A stretch of 38,260 bases of DNA, from the IMG/VR virus record IMGVR_UViG_3300035099_000171, positions 1-38,260 of that record; one strand, written 5' to 3'. The DNA is from a virus. The stretch's first letter is position 1, and every line of letters begins with the position of its first letter. The position numbers and the translations under genes are program-made. The notes beneath the pieces were generated by a model. That model saw nothing but the letters and a program-made list of their open reading frames with translations, ran no database searches and was not told the DNA's origin. Shown one piece after another: positions 18,525 to 38,260 of the stretch.

Positions 18525-18554
18525 TTACTTATGTTACTGTAGTGACATAAGTAA
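18525..18554. repeat. Inverted repeat TTACTTATGT / ACATAAGTAA
   Basis: Arms 18525-18534 and 18545-18554 are exact 10-bp complements across a 10-base centre that itself nearly pairs. A single half site, TGACATAAGTAA, recurs at 18872-18883. This is consistent with an operator or origin-binding site just left of the DnaA boxes. Confidence 0.55.
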
Positions 18555-18582
18555 GATAGAGATGACAGACTTATTTTAAAAG

Positions 18583-18644
18583 TTATCCACTTATCCACTG
18601 AGTTATCCACAATTTGAAAAAAAGTTATCCACAGGTTATCCACT
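18583..18644 (+). other. Cluster of five DnaA boxes
   Basis: TTATCCACT at 18583 and 18591, TTATCCACA at 18603 and 18625, and TTATCCACT at 18636, all on the same strand within 62 bp. TTATCCACA is the bacterial DnaA-box consensus. Oriented clusters in A/T-rich DNA are typical of DnaA-dependent origins or DnaA-controlled promoters. The phage lacks a full DnaA, so host DnaA should bind here. Confidence 0.85.
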
Positions 18645-18751: not shown

Positions 18752-18964
18752 AAGAGGTCTTAAAGTAGGTCAATTTTTCCTATGTTGCAGTTTTGAAACA
18801 TTGCGATTTTATGCGACATTCAAATATATTAAAAACTCTGAAAGCCTTGCAGGACAAGGGTTTTAGCAACTTGACATAAGTAAAATTAAAAAAAACACTA
18901 ATTCTTGGGGTAGGAAATCAATTGCCTACCTACTAATAGTATTTTTCAAAAAATTCTACACTAA

Positions 18965-18999: not shown

Positions 19000-19028
19000 T
19001 TGACAAACACTTGACAATATGCTATACT
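19000..19028 (+). promoter_or_regulatory. Second rightward promoter
   Basis: TTGACA (19000-19005), 17-bp spacer, TATACT (19023-19028). The transcript would start near 19035, directly before GGAGGTGG and the ATG at 19054. It serves the block of small early genes. Confidence 0.85.
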
Positions 19029-19053: not shown

Positions 19054-19212
19054 ATGAAAAGAGAAGCAAGAAGCATTAAAGAAGAAGAAAGAATATCTAA
19101 AATTTTGAAGAAGGAGAGCAGGGAAATAAAAAAGATGGCAAAAGAAAAAGGAATAGTCGGCTGGACAAAAGAAGAGATGCCAGCTGAATTATTTGAAATT
19201 TTGAAATGCTGA
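19054..19212 (+). CDS. Small basic helical early protein
   Basis: This 52-aa protein is rich in Lys, Arg and Glu (17 of the first 35 residues are charged), is predicted helical to residue 34, and ends PAELFEILKC. GGAGGTGG lies 6 bases before the ATG. The stop lies within a 25-bp tandem repeat, whose first copy codes the last residues. First gene after the promoter; family not recognised. Confidence 0.65.
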   Translation: MKREARSIKEEERISKILKKESREIKKMAKEKGIVGWTKEEMPAELFEILKC

Positions 19213-19256
19213 ATTATTTGAAATTTTGAAATGCTGAATTATTTGAAATTTTGAAA
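19183..19256 (+). repeat. Three tandem copies of a 25-bp unit at a gene end
   Basis: Copies at 19183-19207, 19208-19232 and 19233-19256 (the last one base short) begin GCTGAATTATTTG and are otherwise identical. The first copy codes the C-terminus of the 52-aa protein. Because 25 is not a multiple of 3, extra copies fall in other frames and follow the stop. The perfect identity indicates recent slippage. Confidence 0.9.
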
Positions 19257-19269
19257 GAGGTGAGTAAAT

Positions 19270-20635: not shown

Positions 20636-20668
20636 AAAATCTCCCTGCATAGATGCAAAAAGGGGAGA
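20634..20668 (-). terminator. Leftward intrinsic terminator-like hairpin
   Basis: TCTCCC (20640-20645) pairs with GGGAGA (20663-20668) around an inner TGCAT/ATGCA stem (20646-20650 with 20653-20657). On the minus strand the stem is followed by six T's (20639-20634), a Rho-independent terminator form. It would stop leftward transcription running in from the early-left operon. On the plus strand there is no T run. Confidence 0.5.
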
Positions 20669-20769: not shown

Positions 20770-20898
20770 ATAAAAAAAATGTGGGTTATTAGAACTTATG
20801 ATAATAAATGGGTTGCACGAGTTATAGATGGCCAATTTAGTTGGCTTTAATAGATAAGAACAAAATTATTTTGGTGGTACTAAAAGGAGGTGAGAGAA

Positions 20899-21177
20899 AT
20901 GGTAAAGGTAATAATATTAAAGGAAGCACGAAACGAGATTTATAACTTTATAGAGAGAGGAATAGTAGGTAAGGCATCAAAAATAGTATGGGCAAGTGTT
21001 TATCCTGGTCATATGTCTTGGTATAGAACAAAATGGTCTCGGAATTGGTGTTGGGTGGTGCGGTGGGTAGAAAATGGGGATTGGAAATATGAACATTGTA
21101 AGACTTATCAAGAAGCAAAAAGAAGAGCAATGGAAATAGGAGAGAGAAAAGAAGAGGAGATGAGAAAAAATGAATAA
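20899..21177 (+). CDS. Tryptophan-rich hypothetical early protein
   Basis: I chose ATG 20899, 6-8 bases after AAAGGAGGTGAG, not the in-frame GTG at 20890 within that site. The 92-aa product has many Trp/Tyr/Arg residues in the centre (WYRTKWSRNWCWVVRWVENGDW) and ends in a charged helix. It overlaps the next gene by 8 bases. The fold looks like a small beta sheet with a C-terminal helix; the function is unknown. Confidence 0.62.
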   Translation: MVKVIILKEARNEIYNFIERGIVGKASKIVWASVYPGHMSWYRTKWSRNWCWVVRWVENGDWKYEHCKTYQEAKRRAMEIGERKEEEMRKNE

Positions 21178-21430
21178 AATAAAAATGAGAGATGAGATAA
21201 TAAAGACAATAGCACAGCAAAGAGGGATAAGCGAAATTGAGTTGGTGTTTGGACTGGACAGGTATTGCACAGATGCACGGCGTGAAGCAATATTAAGAAT
21301 AGTGAAAGAAACAAATTTGAGTTATGAAAAGATTGCAGAAGTATTTAGAATCAGTCGGCAAGGTATTCAATGGCACTTAAAGTCGCTGGGATACTACAGA
21401 AAGAAGACGGCGAATATCAGACATTGTTAG
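21170..21430 (+). CDS. DnaA-domain-IV-like small helix-turn-helix protein (rightward copy)
   Basis: This 86-aa protein has RYCTDARREAILRIVKETNLS (31-51) and EKIAEVFRISRQGIQWHL (53-70). The pattern ARxxAIxxxxxxTxxSxxxIAxxF resembles the C-terminal DNA-binding domain of DnaA (ARQIAMYLxRExTxxSLxxIGxxFG). The DnaA DHTT signature is not kept; SRQGIQWHL sits there instead. So it is related in fold but its sequence specificity is uncertain. Last gene of the rightward operon; its end overlaps the leftward copy (21377-21580) on the other strand. Confidence 0.6.
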   Translation: MNKIKMRDEIIKTIAQQRGISEIELVFGLDRYCTDARREAILRIVKETNLSYEKIAEVFRISRQGIQWHLKSLGYYRKKTANIRHC

Positions 21431-21580
21431 AGATGTCTGTTGCTTAATTGTATAAATTGCTTCTCGCTTGGCACGAGTATAATAAGGAGATTGATAATGA
21501 AGAAAGTCATCAACATTATCAATCTCATATTTCTTCATTGTTTTTTTTATAATTTTTATTGCTTTTTCATAGTCATTCAT
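21377..21580 (-). CDS. DnaA-domain-IV-like small protein (leftward copy, shortened)
   Basis: This 67-aa protein has YYTRAKREAIYTIKQQTSLTMSDIRRLL (33-60), closely resembling YCTDARREAILRI... of the rightward gene. The second helix ends abruptly at SVVSQRL, so the recognition helix is lost or incomplete. ATG 21580 overlaps the RusA stop by 8 bases, which supports translation. Its last 18 codons are antisense to the end of the rightward gene and use CGC/CGT arginine codons, otherwise rare here. Confidence 0.55.
   Translation of the reverse strand: MNDYEKAIKIIKKTMKKYEIDNVDDFLHYQSPYYTRAKREAIYTIKQQTSLTMSDIRRLLSVVSQRL
21496..21548 (+). terminator. Rightward terminator with a competing hairpin
   Basis: AATGAAGAAA (21496-21505) pairs with TTTCTTCATT (21530-21539), followed by G and eight T's (21541-21548): a Rho-independent terminator form for the rightward operon. 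A second perfect 13-bp stem (21487-21499 with 21514-21526) shares four bases (21496-21499) with it and so competes. The whole element lies inside the coding part of the leftward DnaA-like gene. Confidence 0.55.
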
Positions 21581-22007
21581 TGCAGAGATATAATACTTTT
21601 TCTTCCCTTTTTTTTAATTCAAAATTTATAAATGGCTCATCAGTATAAACTTTTATTGCTTTTATATGCCATATTTGGCTATCATCTCTATATGCAATTC
21701 CTCTTAATGCGTCTTTTAGAAGTTTCAGTAAATTGTCAAGGTCTGGTTTTTTGTTATGAACTAAATTCATTCTCTTAAATCTTTTTGGGATGCTTTTAGG
21801 TTTTGGTAATCCGAACACTACTTCTAACATCAATGCCTCACCATTAAAGTATTTTTCTCCCTTTTGGCTAATATATTCATATTTAATTTTTTCTTCTGCC
21901 TCTACCGTCTTTGAAGGAGTATAAGAAAATATTGCTCCTGTTTTCTTGTTTCTAACAACTCTTGCCCTCGCCTTTGGGACTGGTATCATATTTATTTTTA
22001 TTTTCAT
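21573..22007 (-). CDS. rusA: RusA-family Holliday junction resolvase
   Basis: This 144-aa protein has the RusA core KPDLDNLLKLLKDALRGIAYRDDSQI (about 87-112), including acidic residues D89, D91 and D99 and the D108-D109 pair needed for metal-dependent cutting. The N-terminus MKIKINMIPVPKARARV also matches. It resolves four-way junctions formed by the RecT pathway before packaging. It overlaps the following DnaA-like gene by 8 bases. The usual RusA length is about 120-140 aa. Confidence 0.9.
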   Translation of the reverse strand: MKIKINMIPVPKARARVVRNKKTGAIFSYTPSKTVEAEEKIKYEYISQKGEKYFNGEALMLEVVFGLPKPKSIPKRFKRMNLVHNKKPDLDNLLKLLKDALRGIAYRDDSQIWHIKAIKVYTDEPFINFELKKREEKVLYLCNE

Positions 22008-26096: not shown

Positions 26097-27164
26097 TTAT
26101 TTCACCTCAAACCTTGTTGTAATATCTATTTTTCTTACTTGCTCAACTATGTCTTGTAAATCAATTCTCTTTTTTATTTCAGTAGTAATTTTTCTTTTGT
26201 CAACATTAAGACAATCCATTACATCAATTCCTTTTTCTTCACATTTAGAAATCAATTCTCTCACATTCCATTTCCAATTCTCTATCGCTTTTATTCCTGC
26301 AACTACATCATTATATTTTATTTCTCCTTTTTCCTTGCAATGCTCTTTAAGAAGATTTTTTATTTCTGCAATTTTTTTGTCAAGTCTGATATATTCTTTG
26401 ATGAGGGCCTGTGGACTTTCTAAAATGTATGTCTTATCTTTCTTACTTCTCATTTCTTCGCAATTTTCCCAGTAATCACAATTCACGCAATGAGAAGACA
26501 ATTTAGCAGGAAATTCTTTTTCATTTTCTATCATCTCAACTAAAAACAAAATTTTCTTCTCTATTTTAGAAATTTCATCTAATTTTATTTCCCATTCCTT
26601 TGTCCAAGCGAAATTAACAAAATCAAACTCAACAAAAATGTTTTTGATTTTAGGAAAAATTTTTGAAATCAAAAAAGCATAAGTTTCTAATTGTAGTTTA
26701 TCAGTCTGCAATGAATATCCTGTCTTGTAGTCAACTATTTTTATAGTGTTATTTTTTTGATATACTACATCCATCTTCCCTCTAAACCAGACATCTTTTG
26801 CTAACCAGTCAACTTCAATTCCTTCTTCATTTATTGCCACTTCTTTTTCTATCCCTATTATACCATCTGTTTCTATTTCTTTTGAAGATAGATAATTATC
26901 AAGATTTTCTTTTATTTTTTCCACATCTTCTACATCTAATTTATATTTAGACAAAACTTCATCCTGAATTTCATCTTTTCTTTCCCACAGAGTAGAAACT
27001 TTTTTTATCTTACATTCTGAAACATAATTAGCAAGTATTGAATGCACAATTTCACCGATAATTAAATTTTCTGATTTTGGGACTTTAATCTTGTCAACAT
27101 ATTTTAATTTAAATTGTTGCGGACAGACTTGAAAAGTATTTAATGCACTATAAGAATATGTCAT
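26097..27164 (-). CDS. RecB/Cas4-like PD-(D/E)XK nuclease with Fe-S cysteines
   Basis: This 355-aa protein has YSALNTFQVCPQQFKLKY (C14), GEIVH (H41), GKMDVVY (D132), VDYKTG (D145, K147) and QLETYAF (Q158, Y162): the RecB-family nuclease motifs in order. CVNCDYWENC (C226, C229, C235) plus C14 form the 4Fe-4S set of AddB/Cas4-type enzymes. It overlaps recT by 4 bases. It should resect double-strand ends to give single strands for RecT. Confidence 0.88.
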   Translation of the reverse strand: MTYSYSALNTFQVCPQQFKLKYVDKIKVPKSENLIIGEIVHSILANYVSECKIKKVSTLWERKDEIQDEVLSKYKLDVEDVEKIKENLDNYLSSKEIETDGIIGIEKEVAINEEGIEVDWLAKDVWFRGKMDVVYQKNNTIKIVDYKTGYSLQTDKLQLETYAFLISKIFPKIKNIFVEFDFVNFAWTKEWEIKLDEISKIEKKILFLVEMIENEKEFPAKLSSHCVNCDYWENCEEMRSKKDKTYILESPQALIKEYIRLDKKIAEIKNLLKEHCKEKGEIKYNDVVAGIKAIENWKWNVRELISKCEEKGIDVMDCLNVDKRKITTEIKKRIDLQDIVEQVRKIDITTRFEVK

Positions 27165-28126
27165 TGTTTTTTCTCCTTTTCACTTTTTAATTTTAAATTT
27201 AATTGCTCTGCAAGTTCTTTAATGAAATTATCCTTCTGTTCTTCTGTCAAGTCCTTGCTTGAATTGACCCCAAAATTCTGTTGCAATAAAACTCTGTATT
27301 CTTCGTCTAAAATTCCTAATTTATTTTGTAATTCTTTTATTCTAATAATTTTTTTATCAACTTTTTTCTTCTCTGTTTCTTCTTCTTTTTTCCCATTCCC
27401 AACTTTTTTATCCAAGTCCATATTTAATCTCTCTTGCAATTTTTCTTCTCCTTTTTCTTCTCCATACACTTCCATATATTTTTTATAAATTTCTTCTCTC
27501 TCTGCCTCTCCATATCCCAGAGTTCCAAATAATTTTTCTATCGTTTCTGGATATTTTGATTTTGGAAGTTCTTTTACTTCCTCTTTTTGCAATTCTACTT
27601 TACCATTTACAATTTCCTCTGCCCCTAATTCTTCAGGAGTATATGCTCCACCAATTAGATGAGGACAAAACCATCTTGCACCATTGCTAATTGCCCTTGC
27701 AAAAAGCAAGTTTCTTGGATATTTCCCCCAGAGATTGTAATCCACTCCATCTTTGACTTTTGGCTTTAAAAGTCCTGCTTTTTCTGCGTCTTTTAAAGAA
27801 AAAGAAGAAGTTCCGATTTTCTCCCAACCATTTTCTTTCCTCTGAAAAAAATCTATAATACATTTTTCGTTACTATGCTCAATTACTTTATAATCATATT
27901 CTTTGCTCTCCTTAATCTTTTGTGCCATTAAATCCGCACCAATTGCGATTTTTCCCTGTATGATGTGAACCTTCGTCATTGACAATAATGGCGGTATTCC
28001 CAACTCTCTCCCAGCCAGAATTTTCACAATTGCTTGTGCTTCTGACTTTGCGTCAGAAAATAGACCACTCCTGAAAAAGATTTTCCCTAAATTCTCTGCT
28101 TCTTGTAATGTTATTTCTTCTACCAT
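27161..28126 (-). CDS. recT: RecT single-strand annealing protein
   Basis: This 321-aa protein has AIVKILAGRELGIPPLLSMTKVHIIQGKIAIGADLMA (about 31-67) and LFARAISNGARWFCPHLIGGAYTPEEL (about 144-170), the conserved RecT/Bet core. A charged, helical C-terminus (205-321) follows. I chose ATG 28126, preceded by AAGGGGTGA; a GTG at 28135 overlaps the HTH gene's stop. It anneals complementary strands, working with the nuclease and RusA. Confidence 0.9.
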   Translation of the reverse strand: MVEEITLQEAENLGKIFFRSGLFSDAKSEAQAIVKILAGRELGIPPLLSMTKVHIIQGKIAIGADLMAQKIKESKEYDYKVIEHSNEKCIIDFFQRKENGWEKIGTSSFSLKDAEKAGLLKPKVKDGVDYNLWGKYPRNLLFARAISNGARWFCPHLIGGAYTPEELGAEEIVNGKVELQKEEVKELPKSKYPETIEKLFGTLGYGEAEREEIYKKYMEVYGEEKGEEKLQERLNMDLDKKVGNGKKEEETEKKKVDKKIIRIKELQNKLGILDEEYRVLLQQNFGVNSSKDLTEEQKDNFIKELAEQLNLKLKSEKEKKQ

Positions 28127-28131
28127 ATTTC

Positions 28132-28314
28132 TCACCCCTTTTCTATTTTTTTAAAAATACTTTTCAGTCTTCTACTTGCTAACCGAGAAGGACTTGCCTT
28201 CCCTTCTTTCCAATTTTCAATTGTCTGTCTTCTTACTCCTACTGCATAAGCAATATTTTCAACACTATAGTATTTTTTCTTCAGTTTTTCCCATTGTTCT
28301 TTTGTTATTTCCAT
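28132..28314 (-). CDS. Small helix-turn-helix protein (candidate early repressor)
   Basis: This 60-aa protein is nearly all helix-turn-helix: YSVENIAYAVGVRRQTIENWKEGKASPS is the XRE-like two-helix pattern. AAAGGAGGAAAGTC precedes ATG 28314. It is the first gene after the early-left promoter, where palindromes lie, so autoregulation is likely. It lacks the peptidase-type C-terminus of lambda CI-like repressors. It may also bind the related palindromes at the late promoter and in the 18.7-kb region. Confidence 0.7.
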   Translation of the reverse strand: MEITKEQWEKLKKKYYSVENIAYAVGVRRQTIENWKEGKASPSRLASRRLKSIFKKIEKG

Positions 28315-38103: not shown

Positions 38104-38260
38104 TTATTTTTTCTCCTTCCCTTCTATCAATTCATAGTTATTATTTACATTTTCTGCTTTATAAATTTTTCCACAAGAAGGACATTTTATTTTTTTTGTT
38201 TCTATATTACTTTCAAAATATGTTTTACATTGTCCACATTTACAAACTCTAATTGTTTTT
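38104..38260 (-). CDS. Small zinc-ribbon protein, 3' part (gene spans the circular join)
   Basis: The part 38133-38104 codes the last residues (ELIEGKEKK) and stop of the 55-aa zinc-ribbon protein that starts at 138 in the left copy. 38134-38260 repeats bases 1-127. The two parts together form one gene once the circle is closed. Confidence 0.75.
   Translation of the reverse strand, partial: KTIRVCKCGQCKTYFESNIETKKIKCPSCGKIYKAENVNNNYELIEGKEKK
38134..38260. repeat. Terminal direct repeat (circular assembly overlap), right copy
   Basis: Exact copy of bases 1-127; see the left copy for the reading as a circularisation overlap. Confidence 0.93.

Follow-up and report, generated by a model that had tools for sequence, protein, structure and literature searches.

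What do two small genes that run into each other's 3' ends encode, and do their products act on the DnaA boxes carried by the same genome? We addressed this question in the sequence record of a virus (38,260 bases, 29% GC), analyzed here over its full length (hereafter the window), in which the gene of an 86-aa protein that we call R (positions 21170-21430, rightward strand) meets the gene of a 67-aa protein that we call Lf (21377-21580, leftward strand). A preliminary description of this DNA had proposed that the two genes are clear relatives, that their products resemble domain IV of DnaA, the DNA-binding domain, and that they might interfere with or use DnaA boxes. Our analysis supports this proposal in part: the reading of the fold stands, the reading of the boxes does not.

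The record begins and ends with the same 127 bases (1-127 and 38134-38260) and is therefore probably complete and circular as assembled, with 38,133 bp; 127 is also a k-mer length commonly used in assembly. Almost all of the long frames point leftward, and these genes include structural genes, terminase, portal, an SU10-type capsid gene, a RecT-like gene, an exonuclease and RusA. The putative RecT-like protein, encoded at 27161-28135, ends in 47 residues that match the beginning of GemA from phage Mu (Pfam, E = 8e-7). One rightward block lies at about 16.6-21.4 kb and contains a noncoding kilobase with DnaA-box-like repeats; its operon is headed by a near-consensus sigma-70-type promoter, TTGACA-17-TATACT (19000-19028, rightward strand, 11 of 12 matches). 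At 19183-19257, a 25-bp unit present three times in tandem spans the end of a 55-aa ORF, and the copies repeat the C-terminal codons of this ORF past its stop. Searches of the window for Rfam matches and tRNAs returned none.

R closes the rightward block and Lf closes the leftward block, and the place where they meet is, by the orientation of long frames, the only convergent junction in the genome; the GC skew switches sign there. Both genes are the last of their operons, as the preliminary description had it. The start of R overlaps by 8 nt (21170-21177, rightward strand) the stop of the gene directly upstream, an ORF encoding a 95-aa protein with no family match (20890-21177, rightward strand), and the start of Lf overlaps by 8 nt (21573-21580, leftward strand) the stop of a gene encoding a RusA-like Holliday junction resolvase (21573-22007, leftward strand; Pfam RusA, E = 1.5e-26). 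A start within the last 8 nt of the upstream gene is the usual layout for coupled phage genes. The only terminator-like site near the junction (20641-20662, leftward strand) would serve leftward transcripts that have passed Lf and crossed R; the numbers of such sites do not exceed those in shuffled sequences. We searched close behind R and Lf and found no terminator-like site there, so longer read-through antisense transcripts are possible.

R and Lf are related. BLASTP aligns them with 12 of 33 residues identical and an E value of 1e-4 for the single comparison, which would be weak if taken alone, since the two were picked from many possible pairs. Their Smith-Waterman score of 57 was reached by none of 20,000 shuffles of Lf, and when only residues 1-50 of Lf were used, all of them encoded outside the overlap, 4 of 20,000 shuffles aligned to R as well; the claim that the two genes are clear relatives is thereby confirmed. 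As the aligned residues are encoded on different DNA, the overlap does not account for the similarity. Searches of viral contigs and phage collections with R, Lf or their alignment returned no homologue, and no homologue of R was found in genome contigs. Neither PF08299 nor a profile of R and Lf matched any of 40 terminase-related phages (at most 42% identity), a null result that shows little because a search with PF08299 does not pick up the window either. The best control match in these related phages (9.9 bits) was set aside as a chance match.

At the profile level, the kinship of the two proteins with DnaA domain IV appears remote and not strong. R aligns to the Pfam family Bac_DnaA_C (PF08299) over residues 8-59 with an E value of 0.038 and 14.5 bits, below the cut-off of 31.5, and Lf has no match to this family. 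R also aligns to HTH_11 over residues 37-73 (E = 8e-4, 19.6 bits, below the cut-off of 25) and to SdpR (E = 6e-5, 22.9 bits, below the cut-off of 100). We aligned 15 domain IV sequences: that of E. coli, checked against 1j1v, and 14 taken from a phage collection. At least two of the 14 come from unannotated records and look like bacterial dnaA. The profile search against domain IV that the preliminary description had suggested gave a match: hhalign of R and Lf, taken together, against these 15 sequences returned an E value of 2.9e-5 and a probability of 74% over 52 columns. Taken separately, R scored 11.4-11.5 bits with the domain IV profile, with 1 of 5,000 shuffles as good, and Lf scored 8.5-9.0 bits, with 6 of 5,000 as good. 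The two rank first and second among the 324 frames of the window, the next frame scoring 3.9 bits, and of 7,020 frames from other phages not one reached the score of R and a single frame, a chance match, reached that of Lf. The AAA+ domain III with its Walker motifs is absent from both proteins, and the genes neighboring R and Lf match other families or none.

Structure prediction agrees for Lf. Its AlphaFold model (pLDDT 85.9, pTM 0.73) has DnaA domain IV as all of its best three solved matches, namely B. subtilis DnaA (Z 7.4), the M. tuberculosis DnaA-DBD (Z 6.8, TM 0.74, rmsd 1.2 Å) and Aquifex DnaA (Z 6.1), with an overall range of Z 6.1-7.4 and TM 0.66-0.74 and the next, unrelated match at 4.6; Z values below 8 are common for small helical models, and the Foldseek E value of 0.91 is not significant. 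The model spans the N-terminal four helices of a domain-IV-like fold and reaches only the first helix of the helix-turn-helix (HTH), in line with the earlier remark that Lf is cut short; the truncation lies inside the HTH, and the recognition helix is missing. We considered a frameshift that would restore this helix and rejected it, as no other frame beyond the Lf stop continues a convincing HTH. The model of R is poor (pLDDT 64.5): DnaA chains appear only at Z ~3 amid unrelated chains, and fold searches with it returned nothing trustworthy, so for R we rely on sequence and on the relationship to Lf. The assignment of Lf to domain IV is persuasive because sequence and fold agree. Taken together, the hhalign match, the profile scores and the matches of the Lf model support the prediction that both proteins are DnaA-domain-IV-like, with good support for Lf and moderate, weaker support for R.

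The two genes lie tail to tail and share 54 bp, or 18 codons (21377-21430, both strands), as first described. The register is codon on codon: Lf codons 51-68 are the reverse complements of R codons 87-70, such that Leu70 of R (TTA) complements the stop of Lf (TAA) and Leu51 of Lf (CTA) complements the stop of R (TAG). The statement that the last 18 codons of Lf are dictated by R is therefore literally true, each of them being the complement of one R codon. The codons of the first HTH helix of Lf, LTMSDIRRLL (residues 51-60; 21401-21430, leftward strand), fall wholly within the overlap, whose coded part gives 6.5 of the 9.0 bits that Lf scores with the domain IV profile; only 9 of 20,000 random antisense tails were as good as this helix. 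The overlap thus really encodes the first HTH helix of Lf. On the opposite strand, the HTH of R, 'SYEKIAEVFRISRQGIQWHLKSL' (residues 51-73; 21320-21388, rightward strand), is complete by residue 73, where the HTH_11 match ends. The last dozen residues of R largely complement the helix of Lf, and the last seven residues of Lf complement the end of the HTH of R, so that each free tail is dictated by the conserved part of the other protein. When the tail of R was recoded synonymously, 18-29% of the recodings scored Lf as high as the real sequence, and nothing thus points to selection on codons for Lf beyond what the amino acids of R require.

DnaA boxes are indeed present in this genome: five box-like direct repeats, (G/C)TTATCCAC(A/T), lie within 63 bp of the noncoding kilobase (18582-18644, rightward strand), and in 100 Markov genomes no 62-bp stretch held more than one TTATCCAC. 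This array, a candidate origin, is probably where the phage starts replication and where host DnaA would act. Just upstream, a palindrome, TTACTTATGTTACTgtAGTGACATAAGTAA (18525-18554), is a candidate operator; an exact copy of its half site, TGACATAAGTAA, lies 330 bp further along (18872-18883). Arrays of at least three such boxes occur in at least 120 viral contig stretches. Where we looked, such arrays and domain IV genes did not occur together: each of 12 phages with true domain IV genes carries at most one exact TTATCCACA, and 80 viral loci with box arrays contained no clear domain IV gene in the DNA examined.

In domain IV, bases are contacted by residue 399 of the basic loop and by residues 423, 432-435 and 438-439 (PMC5043019), and in E. 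coli DnaA the substitutions R399A and T435M impair box binding (PMC5742627). Among our 15 domain IV sequences, R29 (equivalent to Arg399), R37 and T66 are invariant, and D63 and H64 (Asp433 and His434) are nearly so. Of these five residues, protein R keeps only R37, and it has SRQG where domain IV sequences read DHTT. The Arg399 equivalent is absent from both R and Lf. As Lf ends before the recognition helix, and hence before the DHTT position, it cannot read DNA in the manner of DnaA. For R, the loss of these residues predicts that it probably does not bind TTATNCACA.

Our preferred explanation, to which we give an even chance, is that R is a diverged domain-IV-like regulator with another specificity, and that Lf is a second copy truncated by a deletion that fused the 3' ends of the two genes. 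R and Lf would then both be copies of one helical module resembling DnaA domain IV, diverged from each other and without the AAA+ part. In R the HTH is complete and the residues that read TTATNCACA are replaced, so that R would most likely be a regulator with a site of its own; we infer a small sequence-specific regulator of the early or replication region, acting near the origin or the early promoters. Most likely, one deletion took away the 3' ends that the two genes had before and joined what was left: R would since run into the complement of the HTH helix of Lf, and Lf would stop at the complement of the recognition helix of R, which would explain the tails of both. Lf, if it is made, would act only via protein contacts or by competing for the partners of R. 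In favor of this explanation, the HTH of R is like that of the phage immunity repressor 7r6r (weakly, E = 0.6); counting against it, R falls below the Bac_DnaA_C cut-off and scores better with general HTH families.

The latter observation could mean that R is one of the ordinary HTH repressors and has no kinship with DnaA, its domain IV score reflecting a general likeness among HTH or helical proteins. The best Pfam and NCBIfam matches of R, to HTH_11 and SdpR, are of this generic kind, and its model found no fold match. However, the domain IV alignment of R takes in the N-terminal helices and the basic-loop region (residues 8-59) and not the HTH alone, and the related protein Lf has a predicted fold that matches DnaA domain IV; we consider an unrelated repressor unlikely. 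We see still less of a case for the proposal that R and Lf bind DnaA boxes and aid phage initiation near 18.6 kb or compete with host DnaA: a box array and two proteins with a predicted domain-IV-like fold do occur in one genome, but the Arg399 equivalent and DHTT are gone in R, R399A and T435M impair box binding by E. coli DnaA, the recognition helix is gone in Lf, and arrays and domain IV genes do not co-occur in the phages and loci examined.

A serious rival concerns Lf, because synonymous choice adds nothing and its codon usage is weakly gene-like: Lf may be a decaying remnant that persists locked into the gene of R and behind RusA, with only R at work. Besides the missing recognition helix and the lack of any homologue in our searches, the non-overlapping part of Lf has a codon usage of 0.09 bits per codon; every reference gene lies higher (minimum 0.17), and 4 of 82 out-of-frame chance frames score at least this much. 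A remnant is harder to square with the intact ATG and its 8-nt coupling to RusA, with a frame free of internal stops, with the gene-like GC content by codon position in the non-overlapping part (0.38, 0.24 and 0.20) and with a predicted fold that is confident and complete-looking; we regard it as possible, though not probable. The opposite view of Lf, that it forms a functional pair with R derived from one ancestor, in which a reader of new specificity works with a non-reading partner or antagonist, would make the two genes genetically locked, since the codons that truncate Lf encode the recognition helix of R; this strikes us as a long shot. Much the same slim chance attaches to the idea that the overlap itself matters, with antisense pairing of mRNA ends or polymerase collision tying early-left to early-right expression. 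The junction is the only convergent one in the genome and neither gene has a terminator-like site close behind it, but compact genomes often contain convergent genes whose 3' ends overlap.

Phage genes for DnaA domain IV are already known. With R and Lf keeping the predicted fold and dropping the box-reading residues, our preferred explanation of a diverged regulator suggests that the module has been reused for general DNA-binding regulation. R and Lf also offer a small natural example of related genes that share DNA while running in opposite directions, in which the conserved part of each gene fixes the free tail of the other, so that the cost of antisense overlap becomes directly measurable.

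Known phage proteins of the Bac_DnaA_C family (PF08299) include Greip gp42 and that of HTVC010P, both from Pelagibacter phages, and gp62 of Sulfitobacter phage phiGT1; Microcystis, Cellulophaga and Rhizobium phages carry others. Our literature search found no study on the function of a phage protein made of domain IV only. These proteins have in common with R and Lf a small size, a position in early or replication regions and the helix order of domain IV, which for R and Lf is predicted. In Greip, too, the DnaA-C gene closes its operon, and it shares 11 bp with a convergent gene (1279-1951 of the stretch examined); HTVC010P has the same convergent layout without the overlap. Unlike R and Lf, the phage Bac_DnaA_C proteins retain the Arg399 equivalent as well as DHTT or a close variant of it, and they reach 79-112 bits with a profile in which they are included, as compared with 11.5 for R and 9.0 for Lf. 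Around their genes, the stretches examined held no second copy above chance, whereas two copies are present here.

Domain IV of bacterial DnaA (1j1v, 3pvp, 8btg) shares the predicted fold of Lf and the probable helix order of R; R and Lf differ from bacterial DnaA in lacking the AAA+ domain and the box-reading residues and, in the case of Lf, the recognition helix. Between R and the immunity repressor 7r6r, HTH 'IAEVFRISRQGIQWHLKSLG' is like 'IAELYGVTRQAVSWHKKTYG' (E = 0.6), a likeness confined to the HTH, as the size and the remainder of the two proteins differ. Finally, antiparallel gene pairs that arose by overprinting, such as that of laoB (PMC5810103), also place two opposite-strand frames on one DNA. 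Such overlaps are long and antiparallel and join unrelated genes, whereas the overlap of R and Lf is short, runs tail to tail and joins related ones.
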